Below are positions 2,686 to 7,347 of a DNA stretch of 8,974 bases, in pieces (position 1 is the stretch's first letter; each line of letters starts with the position of its first letter). Location: NCBI GenBank assembly GCA_021845155.1, contig JAKBSB010000043.1:1-8974 (forward strand), read 5' to 3'. A program made the translations under genes and the position numbers. The notes under the pieces were generated by a model. That model did not search any database and was not told where the DNA came from. It saw only the letters and a list, made by a program, of their open reading frames with translations. This DNA comes from Thermoplasmata archaeon (GTDB taxonomy: Archaea; Thermoplasmatota; Thermoplasmata; Thermoplasmatales; Thermoplasmataceae).

Positions 2686-3600
2686 ATGTTAAAAAACAGG
2701 AGCGTTGTCTCTATTGACGATGTGTCAAAAGAGGATATGACTGAGATTTTTGAAACTTCAGACGAGATGTCAAAGCTGCTTGAACAGCACAAACCCCTGA
2801 AAGTAATGGATGGAAAGATTATGGCTACACTCTTCTATGAGCCGAGTACACGAACGCGGCTTTCCTTTGAAAGCGCAATGAACCGGCTGGGCGGGTCAGT
2901 CATAACAGTTTCTGATACGGGAAGTTCTTCCATTGCCAAGGGCGAGACGCTTGCTGATACCATCCGGATGGCTGAATCGTATTCAGATATCATTGTGATC
3001 AGGCACCCGATGGAAGGAGCGGCAAGACTTGCTTCCAGGTTTTCCTCCAAGCCGGTTATCAATGCCGGAGACGGATCAGGGCAGCATCCTACACAGACAC
3101 TGATGGATCTCTATACCATGAAGAAGGAAAAGGGCGCAATAGACGGGCTTAACATAGCCATGATCGGAGACCTGAGGTACGGAAGAACCGTTCATTCGCT
3201 CATACTTGCCCTTTCAAAGTTCAACGTGAGCATCACCCTTGTCTCGCCACAGGTTCTCAGGATACCTGAACACATACTTGCGAGATTGCCAAAGGGATTC
3301 GATGTAACGGTGACTGACAGCCTTTCTGAAGTACTGAGGAAAACGGATGTTTTCTATGTAACGAGAATACAGAAGGAGCGATTTACAGACCTGAATGAAT
3401 ACCAGAGTGTTATCGGTTCATACTCCGTTGATGAGAAGGCGGTTTCGGAGATGAAGGATGACGCCATAATAATGCATCCTCTTCCCAGGATAGACGAGAT
3501 ATCTCCTGAGGTTGACTATTCCAAAAAGGCTGCATATTTCAGGCAGGCAGCAAATGGTGTACCTGTAAGGATGGCACTTGTTTCAACAATACTGGGGTGA
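2686..3600 (+). CDS. pyrB: Aspartate carbamoyltransferase catalytic subunit
   Basis: The 304-residue product condenses carbamoyl phosphate with aspartate to give N-carbamoyl-aspartate, the committed step of de novo pyrimidine synthesis. Every signature is present: the carbamoyl-phosphate site [12 protein letters not shown] (50-61); the mobile-loop lysine in SSIAKGE (Lys85); IRHP (105-108); [11 protein letters not shown] (134-144); the aspartate-domain [13 protein letters not shown] (160-172); the TRIQKER segment (226-232); and MHPLPRIDE (263-271). Length and order match the catalytic chain (about 305). It should form catalytic trimers that assemble with PyrI hexamer-style as in E. coli. The ATG fits a TATA box 27 bases upstream. 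The stop (3598-3600) abuts the PyrI ribosome binding site, so the two subunits are likely made in coupled amounts. Confidence 0.97.
3594..3600 (+). promoter_or_regulatory. pyrI ribosome binding site inside the pyrB stop
   Basis: GGGGTGA covers the last bases and stop codon of pyrB and stands five bases before ATG 3606. It supports ATG 3606 over the overlapping GTG at 3597, which has no such site before it. Confidence 0.55.
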
Positions 3601-3605
3601 AGAAA

Positions 3606-4067
3606 ATGGAACAGACACTAAAAATTTCGAAAATAAGGGAAGGAACTGTCATAGATCATATTCCTGCCGGCAAGGCAATCAAGGTTCTGGCAATCCTGAA
3701 GATAGATGAGAAGGGATCACAGACAGTAAGCGTTGGAATCAGGGTTCCAAGCGGCAGAATAGGTTCAAAGGATGTAGTGAAAATAGAGGGTAGGTATCTT
3801 GAAAGATTTGAGGTTGACAAAATCTCGCTTATTGCCCCGGAGGCTTCAATAAGTATAGTCAAGAATTATGAGGTCGTTGAGAAGTTCAGGGTGGACCTTC
3901 CGGAGAGAGTAACTGGAATAATAAAGTGCTCAAACCGCAACTGCATAACTAATTCAAGGGAACCTGTTCCAAGCGAGTTCTATGTATCATCAAAAAAGCC
4001 ACTGGTGCTCAGATGCTACTACTGTGAGAGGAACATGCAGGAAAAAGATATACTGAACAACCTTTAG
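3606..4067 (+). CDS. pyrI: Aspartate carbamoyltransferase regulatory subunit
   Basis: The 153-residue PyrI is the allosteric chain of aspartate carbamoyltransferase. Its N-terminal domain binds nucleotides; the C-terminal domain contacts PyrB through a structural zinc. [18 protein letters not shown] (11-28) is the family's opening signature and holds the allosteric-site region. [19 protein letters not shown] and [15 protein letters not shown] follow as in E. coli. Four zinc cysteines form C-x4-C (108, 113) and C-x2-C (137, 140), nearly the E. coli numbering. I chose ATG 3606 because of the GGGGTGA site five bases upstream. A GTG at 3597 overlapping the pyrB stop would add MKK. Allosteric control by nucleotides is expected from the family, but the effector cannot be told from sequence. 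Confidence 0.96.
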
Positions 4068-4088: not shown

Positions 4089-4865
4089 TCAGGATATCAG
4101 CTGGAGTCTTAGAAGTTCAAGTGCGCCGGACATCCTTGTGGATATAACCTCAAGGTCCCGGGCTATTCTTATATTAAGATTCTTTACCTTTTCAGATATC
4201 TGGGCCATGGTTCCATTCAGGGGACCAAGGTGAATGTCGTTGTCATATTCTCTTATATAGTGGTTTATGTTCGACAGTTCCTTCTTGCCTACTTCTGCCA
4301 GATGCCTCTTTGAGTATTCGTTCACGGAAGGTATGACGACAAGATTGTAGTGTGTTATGTTCCTGTTTGCAAGAAGTTTGGAAAATGCTATATGGAGGGG
4401 CTGGGCAAATTGGCCGCCAAAGCCGCTTACAAGTATGAATGAGTTTGACTTGTCCATCCCGGAGAATATTTCACTGGCAGTTATTGAGGGTGAAAAATCA
4501 TGCGGATTGTAGTCAATGACAGATTCGCTTATTTTTACAGGATCCCTTTCCACAAGTTTTACCTTCTTTGCCTTCTCCTGATCATACTGCAGCTTGCTGA
4601 CCAGCTCAACTTCCATTGGCTCCGGGCCAACTATCTCCAGTATATCCGTATACCTGTCAGCATAGTCGTTTACATGATAGCCGGTCTTGTTCCTTACAAC
4701 TGAATGGTAAACCGCCCTCCTGTATTCCAGTGGCATGATATTTTCAAGTATCCTCCTTCCAGCATTGCCAAATGATATGATTGTGTTATCTGCACGGTCC
4801 TCGTAGTAGTTTCTTACTATCTCGCGGGCCTGCTTTCCCATATTGTTGTCAAATTCATTTTCCAT
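4089..4865 (-). CDS. Short divergent FtsZ/tubulin-like protein, GTPase motif lost
   Basis: This 258-residue protein can be laid over the nucleotide-binding domain of FtsZ. NTIISFGNAGRRILENIM (27-44) matches the first strand and G-rich T1 loop. FILVSGFGGQFAQPLHIAFSKLL (143-165) sits where FtsZ has the strand plus tubulin signature GGGTGTG and following helix. YNLVVIPS and YSKRHLAEVGKKELSNI match the later strand and the EGxxR-type segment. The signature here is only GFGGQFAQP, so tight GTP binding and hydrolysis look lost. The chain ends after a helix like core helix H7 (about 225-258), so the T7 loop and C-terminal domain are missing, against 350 or more residues in FtsZ. A strong AGGAGG site precedes the ATG. 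It is co-transcribed with the RHH gene, one base downstream of it. FtsZ kinship is inferred from pattern; a chaperone-like or scaffold role is possible. Confidence 0.6.
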   Translation of the reverse strand: MENEFDNNMGKQAREIVRNYYEDRADNTIISFGNAGRRILENIMPLEYRRAVYHSVVRNKTGYHVNDYADRYTDILEIVGPEPMEVELVSKLQYDQEKAKKVKLVERDPVKISESVIDYNPHDFSPSITASEIFSGMDKSNSFILVSGFGGQFAQPLHIAFSKLLANRNITHYNLVVIPSVNEYSKRHLAEVGKKELSNINHYIREYDNDIHLGPLNGTMAQISEKVKNLNIRIARDLEVISTRMSGALELLRLQLIS

Positions 4866-4866
4866 C

Positions 4867-5310
4867 TCAATTTCCTCCTTTTTTTAATACGTCTTGATCT
4901 TTTGTTCCTTTTTCCAGGTCCGGTTCGTCCATGAAGATGTCTGAAACACTCTCTGCCAGATTCCTGTACTCCTGGCGCCTTTTTGTGATTAGTTCCGAAA
5001 TAATCCCCTTCTCTGTTGAATAATTTAATATCTCCCCCAGGGCGGAACTGATTGAACTGAAATATCCCTTTCCTATTGCAAGATTCAATGTTTCCAGTAG
5101 TTTCCTGCTTACGTTTACATTTGTCTCTGAAGGTTCTACAAACTGTGCCCTGCTCTTTGAAATAAAATCGATTGATGCATGCCTTATGAATTCCGATCTG
5201 CTTCCAAAGCTGCTGTTTTTCTGAAGAAATTCATCTATTTCCTCGAGATCTGCCTCGGATATTCGGATTGTCAGCTTAGTATCTTTTCCTTCCAATCGGT
5301 TTAACCTCAC
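4867..5310 (-). CDS. Tandem ribbon-helix-helix (RHH) DNA-binding protein, CdrS-like context
   Basis: From GTG 5310 the product has 147 residues. Residues 12-52 (KLTIRISEADLEEIDEFL then FGSRSEFIRHASIDFI) are a classic RHH (CopG/MetJ) domain. Residues 63-100 (NVNVSRKLLETLNLAIGKG then FSSISSALGEIL) look like a second, weaker RHH unit. A charged tail follows (101-147). The frame stays open up to 5409, but a TATA box (5337-5330) lies in that extension and puts the transcript start near 5308-5310. I therefore take GTG 5310, leaderless; TTG 5295, with GGTGAGG before it, is an alternative. The stop is one base from the FtsZ-like ATG. In haloarchaea the RHH protein CdrS is encoded just upstream of ftsZ2 and controls division genes; this gene has the same position. 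It probably represses or tunes its own operon, an inference supported by the GTAC sites around its promoter. Confidence 0.78.
   Translation of the reverse strand: MRLNRLEGKDTKLTIRISEADLEEIDEFLQKNSSFGSRSEFIRHASIDFISKSRAQFVEPSETNVNVSRKLLETLNLAIGKGYFSSISSALGEILNYSTEKGIISELITKRRQEYRNLAESVSDIFMDEPDLEKGTKDQDVLKKGGN
4874..4879 (-). promoter_or_regulatory. Strong Shine-Dalgarno for the FtsZ-like gene
   Basis: The minus strand reads AGGAGG eight bases before ATG 4865, inside the last codons of the RHH gene. This is the best ribosome binding site in the window. It suggests the second gene is translated independently and efficiently from the shared mRNA. Confidence 0.7.
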
Positions 5311-5319
5311 CCTTCTATT

Positions 5320-5498
5320 CGTACGGAAGTATTTAAATTTTTGTAATGTACGGACAAAATATGTACAGAAATTTTCACATTGTATTATTCTTGTTTGATG
5401 ATAATACAATATATCAGCGTACTTTTGACACTAAAAATTGTTAATGGCATGAAATTGTCATACCTATTTTATCGTGTGTACATCTTTATTCTAAGTAC
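5320..5498. promoter_or_regulatory. Cluster of six GTAC-centred palindromic sites
   Basis: GTAC occurs at 5321, 5348, 5363, 5419, 5478 and 5495. Three have six-base palindromic cores: CGTACG (5320-5325), TGTACA (5362-5367) and TGTACA (5477-5482). Two share GTACGGA. I count roughly fifteen GTAC elsewhere in about 8.4 kb outside this and the pyrB leader, so the cluster is strongly enriched. It surrounds the RHH promoter and reaches toward the aIF2-beta promoter, making it a candidate operator array for the RHH protein. Confidence 0.4.
5329..5338 (-). promoter_or_regulatory. RHH-FtsZ-like operon TATA box
   Basis: The minus strand reads ATTTAAATA with its centre about 26 bases before GTG 5310, predicting a leaderless mRNA. 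GTACGGA repeats flank it at 5321-5327 and 5348-5354. A factor bound there would compete with TBP/TFB or block the start site. Confidence 0.55.
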
Positions 5499-5593
5499 GT
5501 TATATTTATATCAAAGATTTAGACTGTTGTTCCATATTTTTTGAGGAAACATTCCTGAATAGCCTAAATCCAGAGTTTATTTTAAACAGTCAA

Positions 5594-5605
5594 AGTATTA
5601 ATAAA
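5594..5605 (+). promoter_or_regulatory. aIF2-beta promoter TATA box
   Basis: AGTATTAATAAA is centred about 25 bases before the ATG at 5624, giving a leaderless or near-leaderless message. An out-of-frame ATG at 5619 lies just before it and runs to a stop after ten codons. Confidence 0.5.
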
Positions 5606-5623
5606 GCTGTCCAATAACATGCC

Positions 5624-6247
5624 ATGGTTCAAGGAGATTACGAAGCCCTTTTGAAGAGGGGAGAAAAGATTTTATCAAAATCAAACAAAAATATGGAGAG
5701 GCTCAAGATACCTGACCCTGACATCATATATGAAGGAAAACTGACCATTGTCAGAAACTTTGGGGATATGCTCAGCCTCATAAACAGGGACCCAAGGCAT
5801 ATTACCAAGTTCCTGATGAGTGAGCTTGGAATCGGGCTGACCCTGAACGGAAAGAGGCTGATAATAAACCGTAAGGTGACTCTGGAACAGTTCATGTCAA
5901 AAATGAACATGTACATGGACACATTTGTCATGTGTTATGAGTGTAATTCACCTGATACAGAGCTCCAGAAGGTCGGAAGAACTACTGTGCTGGTCTGTAA
6001 AGCATGTGGTGCCCAGCACCCCATAAGAATGGGCAGGGAATCAAAGGAAAATGACAGCGACATCGAAGAGGGAAAACAGTATACAATACAGGTTACAAGC
6101 ATAGGTCCGTCAGGGGAAGGCAGAGGGATATTCAGGGGCTACAACATCTTTGTTCCGGGCGTGAAGAAGGGTGAAACTGTAAAGGTCCTGATAAAAAAGA
6201 TAAGAAACAATACAGCTATAGCAGAAGTTGTAGACCGTGAAAAATGA
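5624..6247 (+). CDS. Translation initiation factor aIF2 beta subunit with C-terminal TRAM domain
   Basis: The 207-residue protein is the beta subunit of archaeal IF2, which helps the gamma subunit deliver initiator Met-tRNA to the small ribosomal subunit. Residues 1-25 form the gamma-binding helix region. The central alpha/beta domain follows (about 35-100), with FGDMLSLINRDPRHITKFLMSELG typical of the family. The zinc ribbon is C-x2-C (104, 107) and C-x2-C (125, 128), ending ACGAQHPIR. Ordinary aIF2-beta ends near 140. Here a linker and a TRAM domain (about 150-205, GKQYTIQVTSIGPSGEGRG then IFVPGVKKGE) add an RNA-binding beta-barrel. This fusion is known in some Euryarchaeota. The start is ATG 5624 at the predicted transcript start. 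The 3' end overlaps the PIN gene by 11 bases. Confidence 0.93.
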   Translation: MVQGDYEALLKRGEKILSKSNKNMERLKIPDPDIIYEGKLTIVRNFGDMLSLINRDPRHITKFLMSELGIGLTLNGKRLIINRKVTLEQFMSKMNMYMDTFVMCYECNSPDTELQKVGRTTVLVCKACGAQHPIRMGRESKENDSDIEEGKQYTIQVTSIGPSGEGRGIFRGYNIFVPGVKKGETVKVLIKKIRNNTAIAEVVDREK

Positions 6248-6629
6248 TGATTCTGCAAAGAAGGTTGTCCTGGACACAAACTCCCTTGTTTACGCAGTAA
6301 AAACCCATGTTGATCTCAGGGACCAGGTCACTTATCTTGTGGGCAAGTGCGAAATAATCGTTCCTCAATGTGTCATTGACGAATTGAGGGGACTCTCCTC
6401 TGGAAATGTGAACGCAAGGACTGCTCTTGGAATCGTGAGGAGATTTATTACCATAGAATCTGAAGGAAAAGGCGATGACTGCGTATTCAACACAGCCGTC
6501 GGAATGGGCGCATATGTTGTGACCAATGACAGGAATCTTGCCCTTAAGCTTCACGGAAGCGGCCTGAGATGCCTTATGTTCACGTCTGGGAAAAAACTGG
6601 CTTACTGGAACATCAATACAATAGGATAG
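6237..6629 (+). CDS. PIN-domain nuclease-like protein, FCF1/Utp24 type (COG1412)
   Basis: The 130-residue single-domain protein has the PIN layout: VLDTNSLVYA with Asp13, CVIDELRGL with Glu49, GKGDDCVFNTAV with Asp80/81, and VVTNDRNLALKL with Asp98. All four acidic metal-binding positions are present, so nuclease activity is plausible. The type is closest to archaeal FCF1/Utp24-like proteins, thought to act in rRNA processing, rather than to VapC toxins: no antitoxin gene is adjacent and it sits in a translation operon. Relatives in other archaea are often next to aIF2-gamma genes, which fits its place here after aIF2-beta. The only suitable start is GTG 6237, overlapping aIF2-beta by 11 bases in another frame, so translation is probably coupled. 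The exact substrate is unknown. Confidence 0.82.
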   Translation: MKNDDSAKKVVLDTNSLVYAVKTHVDLRDQVTYLVGKCEIIVPQCVIDELRGLSSGNVNARTALGIVRRFITIESEGKGDDCVFNTAVGMGAYVVTNDRNLALKLHGSGLRCLMFTSGKKLAYWNINTIG

Positions 6630-6645
6630 GCCCCCCGGTCTTTCA

Positions 6646-6666
6646 CATAAACATATTATGTTTCTG
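6646..6666. promoter_or_regulatory. Palindrome at the riboflavin kinase start, candidate RbkR operator
   Basis: AAACATA (6649-6655), one T, then TATGTTT (6657-6663) form a perfect 15-base palindrome. With one mismatch (6648/6664) it extends to 6646-6666. It covers the annotated ATG 6658 and an AT-rich stretch about 26 bases before ATG 6679. An HTH regulator binding here would control the gene that encodes it. Confidence 0.5.
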
Positions 6667-7347
6667 GCTATACCTGATGAAATGAACAGCATAGACCCTG
6701 ATGATTACTGGACATTGAAGACAATCAAAAGGATAATGGGAAAAAGTCCGTGGGTATCCTTATCTTCCAGGGAACTTGGGGAAAAACTCTCAGTGAGCCA
6801 GCAGTCCGCATCACGAATCATACTTAAGCTGATAGATAAAGGGTTTATTCAGAGAAAGATACAGGACAGGAGGCAGAACATATCCATAACCGATGCCGGT
6901 CTCGACGTACTATTTTCAGAGATGAATGATCTTGCTTCAGTCCTGGAAATTGACAGGACTCTTGAGATACACGGAAATGTGATCAGCGGCCTTGGTGAAG
7001 GAAGATACTACATATCCAGGAAATCCTACATCATACAGTTCCAGGAAAAACTGGGCTTTATCCCATACCTAGGTACGCTTAACATCAGGATAGATCCTGA
7101 AAATGAGGGCAAGCTTCGAAGATTGAGAAATTCCACCGGGATTCATATTGAGGGTTTCGTTACGGATGACAGGACTTTTGGAGCGGTCAAGGCATTCTCG
7201 GGAAGTATAGGCGGGCTGGAATGTGCCGCAATACTTCCAGAAAGATCAGTTTACAGCGATGTGCTTGAAATAATATCACCTTTCTATCTGAGAGAAAAAC
7301 TTAAGCTTACTGATGGCAGCAGGATAAACCTGGTTGTGAAGATCTGA
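6658..7347 (+). CDS. ribK: HTH-fused CTP-dependent riboflavin kinase (RbkR type)
   Basis: The 229-residue protein joins a winged HTH to the archaeal CTP-dependent riboflavin kinase, which makes FMN from riboflavin. Residues 34-83 (LSSRELGEKLSVSQQSASRI through GFIQRKIQDRRQNISITDAG) form a MarR-like winged HTH. Residues 104-229 are the kinase, with the glycine-rich HGNVISGLGEGRYY (105-118) and GFIPYLGTLNIRID (133-146), which also fits the nucleotide/flavin site. This fusion is known in archaea as RbkR, a kinase that also regulates riboflavin genes. The ATG at 6658 gives the longest product but has no Shine-Dalgarno. ATG 6679 (222 residues) would suit a leaderless mRNA from the palindromic promoter region and keeps both domains. 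It follows the PIN gene by 28 bases, so it may also be read from the aIF2-beta promoter. Confidence 0.93.
   Translation: MFLAIPDEMNSIDPDDYWTLKTIKRIMGKSPWVSLSSRELGEKLSVSQQSASRIILKLIDKGFIQRKIQDRRQNISITDAGLDVLFSEMNDLASVLEIDRTLEIHGNVISGLGEGRYYISRKSYIIQFQEKLGFIPYLGTLNIRIDPENEGKLRRLRNSTGIHIEGFVTDDRTFGAVKAFSGSIGGLECAAILPERSVYSDVLEIISPFYLREKLKLTDGSRINLVVKI

Follow-up and report, generated by a model that had tools for sequence, protein, structure and literature searches.

FtsZ is the textbook example of a filament-forming GTPase, with two domains that are regarded as inseparable for its work. What, then, is the role of an FtsZ relative that has kept only one of them? The question is raised by a 258-residue protein encoded in the window, the stretch of 8,974 nucleotides from a Thermoplasmataceae archaeon that was analysed here. 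A sequence-only reading had lined this protein up with the FtsZ nucleotide-binding domain, and had seen in it a non-hydrolysing, single-domain tubulin relative with GFGGQFAQP in the place of GGGTGTG and an end after an H7-like helix. Table 1 lists the features of the locus.

Table 1. Coordinates of the FtsZ-like gene, its sequence elements and its neighbours in the window.
Feature	Position	Strand	Remark
Single-domain FtsZ-like protein, 258 aa	4089..4865	-	ATG-started ORF; GTPase-domain fold through H7
GFGGQFAQP, residues 148-156	4398..4424	-	Replaces tubulin signature GGGTGTG (T4)
SFGNAG, residues 31-36	4758..4775	-	Replaces T1 loop GxGGxG
YDND, residues 207-210	4236..4247	-	Replaces FtsZ IPND segment (T6)
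H7-like C-terminal helix, residues 220-257	4095..4208	-	Protein stops thereafter
RHH (CdrS-like) DNA-binding protein, 142 aa	4867..5295	-	TTG start at 5295
Divergent intergenic region, RHH to IF2b	5296..5623	.	Possible operator, from sequence
IF2/IF5 domain + TRAM protein (IF2b)	5624-6247	+	Conserved divergent neighbour
PIN protein	6237-6629	+	Conserved divergent neighbour
CTP-dependent riboflavin kinase (RFK)	6658-7347	+	Conserved divergent neighbour
IF2b-PIN-RFK, whole divergent block	5624..7347	+	
Aspartate carbamoyltransferase PyrB	2686-3600	+	Conserved neighbour, other side
PyrI	3597-4067	+	Conserved neighbour, other side
PyrB and PyrI together	2686..4067	+	

Results

A conserved FtsZ-type domain without its GTP signature

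The architecture proposed from the sequence was confirmed. The predicted fold is FtsZ-like, with a Rossmann-type GTPase domain that includes H7; the chain ends directly after this helix, and both the T7 loop (NxDxxD) and the C-terminal domain are absent. The protein of the window by itself matched no family in a Pfam search, 25 of 35 members of the window family (f1) matched PF00091 (best 1.8e-9), and the family profile reached 45 PDB sequences, all of which are FtsZ. In a regular-expression census the T1, GGGTGTG and T7 motifs were each found in 0/36 window-family proteins, as compared to 24/24 for each motif in a comparison set of complete FtsZs. These motifs predict that the protein does not hydrolyse GTP and probably does not bind it, in agreement with the non-hydrolysing tubulin relative suggested earlier. 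Ten positions (Y20, G33, P45, L145, G150, Q155, H158, P179, D208 and N231) are invariant among 35 aligned family members, so that the pocket region has not decayed but keeps its own distinct form across the family. The protein thus shares with canonical archaeal FtsZ the GTPase-domain fold through H7, but has neither GGGTGTG, nor T7, nor the C-terminal domain; CetZ, a two-domain tubulin-like protein with an intact signature, differs from it as well.

The length of the protein is constant, with all seven entries retrieved in a protein search at 258 aa and identities of 78-90% within the genus-level group; all 22 matches of the family profile measure 247-271 aa. Comparison with the gene in genome G094 gave a pN of 0.092 and a pS of 0.732. 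The nearest genome compared, G001, has 77% of sampled 31-mers in common with the window. The protein search gave relatives under the names Oxyplasma meridianum and Thermoplasmataceae archaeon, and two database entries carry an FtsZ name (P0002, "cell division GTPase FtsZ", JGI; P0010, "FtsZ/tubulin family protein", NCBI), the others being called "hypothetical protein". A C-terminal domain hidden in related genomes, which would have spoken against the earlier reading, was found nowhere at this locus in the window family. In genus g20 (L133 and L134) the gene has shrunk further, to 238 and 155 aa, and the signature region reads VSDFAQRYSRE.

The gene follows an RHH regulator

Directly upstream, on the same strand, lies a gene for a ribbon-helix-helix (RHH) protein, whose stop codon is 1 nt before the ATG of the FtsZ-like gene. 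Its TTG start was chosen by match to G094; the longest possible ORF, reaching 5409, overestimates the gene. In the comparison with G094, 118 of 143 codons, stop included, are alike in product between the two genomes. The identity of the protein is taken from weak single-sequence matches (RHH_8, 0.0077; CdrS and aCcr1, 0.0069), all below cut-off, together with a clear RHH pattern in an alignment over 17 relatives. The pairing extends over the family: of the 47 genomes with the FtsZ-like gene, 46 have the RHH gene directly upstream in the same orientation, the exception being G114, where the pair is split between contigs. The same arrangement was seen at 14/14 loci read, at many of them with a spacing of 1-4 nt or an overlap. 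The RHH proteins have about 120-180 aa by longest ORF, as compared to the 61 positions of the CdrS model. Distances among RHH proteins and among FtsZ-like proteins correlate beyond those of IF2b (partial r 0.30, a value reached in 103 of 5000 permutations), a weak signal of possible coevolution that would fit the adaptor role discussed below but does not decide for it.

The order of these genes recalls the haloarchaea, in which CdrS activates ftsZ2 and whose cdrS-ftsZ2 locus is reported to be conserved across most archaeal clades (PMC7439475); in Haloferax, FtsZ1 and FtsZ2 are described as having distinct parts, with FtsZ2 tied to constriction (PMC8178401, PMC7613921). Both loci have in common an RHH regulator gene with an FtsZ-type gene behind it, which in the window, too, probably stems from the FtsZ2 lineage. 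However, haloarchaeal FtsZ2 is described as complete (PMC7439475), whereas the partner in the window is reduced to one domain without T7, C-terminal domain and GTP signature, and the window RHH protein, unlike that of the haloarchaeal operon, has a long C-terminal extension.

In the intergenic region upstream of the RHH gene, there are six GTAC tetramers, where 0.86 would be expected, and at 5379-5410 an inverted repeat of 10 bp without mismatches. Several relatives also have GTAC near -56 and -187. Over 15 upstream regions GTAC occurs 25 times versus 9.5 expected, but CATG is equally enriched (25 versus 9.5), so that GTAC is weak as a promoter motif and may give only a hint that RHH regulates the gene downstream. 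Direct repeats were absent from the 341 nt upstream stretch searched (5290-5630).

Single-domain relatives in sister families and across the class

With a profile of the window family (A2), short relatives were found in f3 and f5, two sister families within the same order, where an RHH gene is followed by a protein of 242-287 aa at 18/18 loci read. In an alignment of 17 of these proteins (A3), T1 is present in 17/17, the T4 signature in 16/17 by a relaxed expression, and T7 in 0/17. Beyond the order, an RHH gene lies upstream of a protein of 226-303 aa at all 42 class loci, which were picked from the best or short-ORF matches among the matches listed; the strict signature is found in 38 of the 42 and T7 in none. 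The relatives in sister families and class together span 226-303 aa. Among the best 80 loci listed from a collection of named genomes, eight encode short single-domain proteins, all with RHH and titled Methanomassiliicoccaceae, Thermoplasmata or Thermoplasmatota; the remaining 72 encode proteins of 320-703 aa, with a T7 motif in 71 and RHH upstream in 5. In family f2, RHH is followed by proteins of 323-346 aa that have a C-terminal part (3 loci). Two single-domain proteins outside the window family have a degenerate GTP signature, apparently independently of it: MGGSSAYAA in L146 (G038), the one A3 protein that fails the relaxed T4 expression, and MGGHAGTEM in L240 (G134).

The window family thus shares with this class-wide line the missing C-terminal domain, the upstream RHH gene and profile similarity (97-99%), and through f5 also the synteny. 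At 7/8 f5 loci, the RHH gene and the single-domain gene stand divergent from IF2b-PIN-RFK with PyrBI close by, as in the window; the eighth locus is at a contig end. Neighbours of this type were seen at 0/10 f3 loci and at 0/42 class loci, where the stretches read were short. The window locus and the intact f5 loci are therefore linked by common synteny. The line as a whole mostly keeps its GTP motifs, whereas the window family has lost them (0/36, as compared to 38/42 in the class and 16/17 in f3/f5), and the window family is therefore a derived variant.

Some genomes of the class hold further FtsZ relatives. Loci L230-L238 of family f11 (e.g. L230:1330-2178, minus strand) encode a second RHH-linked FtsZ-like protein, whose longest ORFs give 266-374 aa. 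Its GTPase part has diverged, and in its C-terminal part T7 takes a form like PFFSTLSEK. In the 17 f11 genomes examined, which are Methanomassiliicoccales-like, PF00091 matches went no lower than 1.7e-36, and the ORFs with the best matches measured 234-304 aa, so that these genomes seem to have no canonical FtsZ; the one-domain protein and the diverged RHH-linked protein were the only FtsZ relatives found in them. FtsZ-type genes have multiplied in many genomes of families f2-f6 (G002-G041), with between four and nine PF00091 matches per genome, and in G012 (C190:9834-10316) a PF00091 match (1.0e-47) lies inside a stop-free open frame of 1602 aa.

Profiles and trees

By profile comparison the window family is nearer to the single-domain sets than to the complete FtsZs of the order: A2 aligned with A3 at a probability of 99.0% (hhalign, E 8e-18, 192 columns) and with the class set A7 at 97.1% (E 6e-11), as compared to 44.2% (E 2e-4) for the complete FtsZs (A8).

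All trees were quick ones with SH-aLRT as their only support, and their sides are called FtsZ1 and FtsZ2 after the RHH link reported in papers, with no labelled reference FtsZ1 or FtsZ2 among the rows. A tree with f11B kept (28 near-copies dropped out of 135 rows) had f11B inside the single-domain clade, with a support of 80, despite its C-terminal part. With the window family included, all single-domain proteins fell on one side, at an SH-aLRT of 96.6 in a tree from which f11B (nine rows) and four long sequences (f1m_L133, L121, L118 and f35m_L146) were removed as well, and of 89.8 in a second tree with 10/36 window-family rows and without clm_L219. Grouping f1 with the complete FtsZs was not rejected (AU p 0.54 and 0.49), and the tree alone therefore does not decide the position of the window family, whose branch is very long. 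When the window family was left out on purpose, together with two long g18 FtsZs (L155, L162) and the thinned rows, the single-domain proteins and the RHH-linked long proteins joined other archaeal FtsZs (SH-aLRT 97) in a clade that includes the RHH-linked haloarchaeal FtsZ and leaves the complete FtsZs of the order outside. Forcing the intact single-domain proteins together with the complete FtsZs was rejected (p 0.020, in the analysis with 10/36 window-family rows). These trees place the intact single-domain relatives with FtsZ2; for the window family itself the AU test of a grouping with complete FtsZ gave p 0.49.

Co-occurrence with complete FtsZ

A complete FtsZ elsewhere in the genome, whose presence the sequence-only reading had supposed, was indeed found: G001 has a 386-aa frame matching PF00091 at 8.6e-44, and a complete FtsZ is present in 46 of the 47 family genomes with the single-domain gene. 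Of 77 window-family genomes, 46 have both genes, 15 neither, 15 only the complete FtsZ, and one (G115, 85% complete) only the single-domain gene; these counts are not independent, and by genus they become 15 with both, 1 with FtsZ only and 3 with neither. Twelve of the 15 genomes with complete FtsZ and no recognised FtsZ-like copy belong to one genus, g18, in which RHH is followed by an ORF of 235-255 aa at 8/8 loci read, with weak similarity (E 0.002, probability 13%). The idea that the window gene is its genome's only FtsZ2, reduced in place of a complete one, was rejected: there are mostly two complete FtsZs besides, which the tree separates from the FtsZ2 clade.

No recognisable FtsZ-like copy was found in any of the 15 family genomes without a PF00091 match. 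RHH is strong (E<=4e-34) in 14 of them and precedes an ORF of 157-179 aa at 12/12 loci, which neither profile (E 0.03) nor fold search tied to FtsZ. The RHH protein therefore does not need the FtsZ-like protein. In these genera the RHH locus persists beside IF2b (L267-L275, L284-L286), and the conserved ORF behind it gives a confident model (pLDDT 79.7) with no good fold match. The three FtsZ-less genera are probably Acidiplasma, Ferroplasma and Picrophilus, which have been reported to be without FtsZ (PMC10936438).

Discussion

A probable change from filament builder to partner protein

We propose, with a probability of about 0.85, that the protein is the product of an archaeal cdrS-ftsZ2-type operon whose FtsZ part lost the C-terminal domain, including T7, in an ancestor of the Thermoplasmata, and later, in the window family, the GTP signature. 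The two losses appear to be separate steps, since syntenic relatives in the sister family mostly keep the signature; the existence of single-domain relatives with intact motifs, together with the synteny shared with f5, points to loss of the domain probably first and of the signature later. The earlier reading was right about the single-domain, non-hydrolysing tubulin relative as judged by motifs, but it missed both the RHH neighbour and the two separate losses. What is left would be a maintained pseudo-GTPase domain, presumably not binding GTP, that is made together with the RHH protein. Since the gene has been kept next to RHH despite both losses, this FtsZ relative has probably given up building filaments for the role of a regulatory partner.

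The N-terminal domain of E. coli FtsZ alone is reported to be insufficient for hydrolysis (PMC8456036), and without T7 and the C-terminal domain the window protein would be unable to pass on a filament or to trigger hydrolysis in a neighbour. It may instead be an adaptor with two binding partners, the RHH regulator and, through what remains of the FtsZ subunit surface, the other FtsZ of the genome, whereby expression of the division programme would follow the state of the FtsZ ring. Such an adaptor is our most likely mechanism, though a tentative one that stands close to two others considered below; identity and mechanism taken together, we consider the whole account somewhat better than an even bet.

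Alternative explanations

Of the alternatives, one that is possible but doubtful follows the sequence-only reading, by which the protein may cap, scaffold or regulate a true FtsZ: the single domain, having one face of an FtsZ subunit but not the other, could bind the exposed T7 face at a filament end and cap or sequester FtsZ, with RHH only setting its level. The architecture without T7 would suit this, as would the near-restriction of the gene to genomes with complete FtsZ (46/47) and its absence in recognisable form from all 15 FtsZ-less family genomes. Control of this kind exists, since MciZ caps the protofilament end (PMC8456036), although MciZ is described as a 40-aa peptide unrelated to FtsZ, and what the two may have in common is capping as a way of working. 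Against it, the nucleotide face that should dock on T7 is without signature in 36/36 family proteins, and in the 17 f11 genomes examined an intact-motif single-domain protein occurs apparently without a complete canonical FtsZ. About as tentatively, the domain may have left the cytoskeleton and serve purely as a co-regulator that modulates DNA binding by RHH, for example through the C-terminal extension of the latter. Adjacency to RHH at 74/74 single-domain loci read (14 + 18 + 42), the tight spacing at many family loci, the length of the RHH proteins beyond the CdrS model, and a gene kept while all GTP motifs were lost are consistent with this, but the FtsZ-less genera have retained RHH with no recognisable FtsZ-like gene beside it.

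The remaining explanations are less probable. Independent truncation of a complete FtsZ within the window family, in place of descent from an ancient single-domain line, is compatible with the AU tests but unlikely, as the profile comparison, with E-values many orders of magnitude apart, favours the single-domain sets and the RHH partner and the syntenic f5 locus speak against it. RHH proteins commonly serve in toxin-antitoxin and partition modules, and the regulator-first gene order would fit an antitoxin with an FtsZ-poisoning partner or a pair like ParR-ParM or TubR-TubZ; this we find very improbable, given vertical, syntenic inheritance beside housekeeping genes over the family, and a TubZR-type system combines a polymerising tubulin-like protein with centromere repeats, whereas here there is no T7 for filaments and the upstream stretch searched has no direct repeats. 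That the gene is decaying and without function is hardly credible: the lost motifs and the further shrinkage in g20 would fit, but the constant 258 aa, the identities within the genus-level group and the low pN relative to pS argue strongly otherwise.

Place among known FtsZ relatives

The RHH-FtsZ2 pair, FtsZ-like Thermoplasmata sequences near FtsZ2 and FtsZ names for single members are already known. In particular, an uncharacterised FtsZ-like clade between FtsZ2 and CetZ has been described that includes Thermoplasmata sequences (PMC9723716); it possibly overlaps the RHH-linked lines reported here, and the parts of that account available to us mention neither a domain loss nor an RHH partner. 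A literature search that covered few subscription papers and preprints returned no description of a one-domain FtsZ in Thermoplasmata or of a two-step loss.

More broadly, the Thermoplasmata gene of the FtsZ2 lineage could be a one-domain GTP switch, a filament-less signalling partner of RHH from which the window family dropped GTP binding, so that a cytoskeletal domain would now be at the service of gene regulation, with some Methanomassiliicoccales-like genomes dividing without canonical FtsZ; we put this forward as a speculation that is rather less than likely. Since only the two FtsZ relatives described above were found in the 17 genomes examined, division there would run without canonical FtsZ.

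The finding bears on the division genes of the Thermoplasmata, where the tree keeps the order's complete FtsZs apart from the FtsZ2 clade and 17 f11 genomes seem to be without a canonical FtsZ. With the two domains of FtsZ regarded as inseparable, a conserved line that lost first the C-terminal domain and then the GTP site, but never its transcription-factor neighbour, would illustrate the path from a cytoskeletal protein to a regulator, and the intermediates of this path are still alive for testing.
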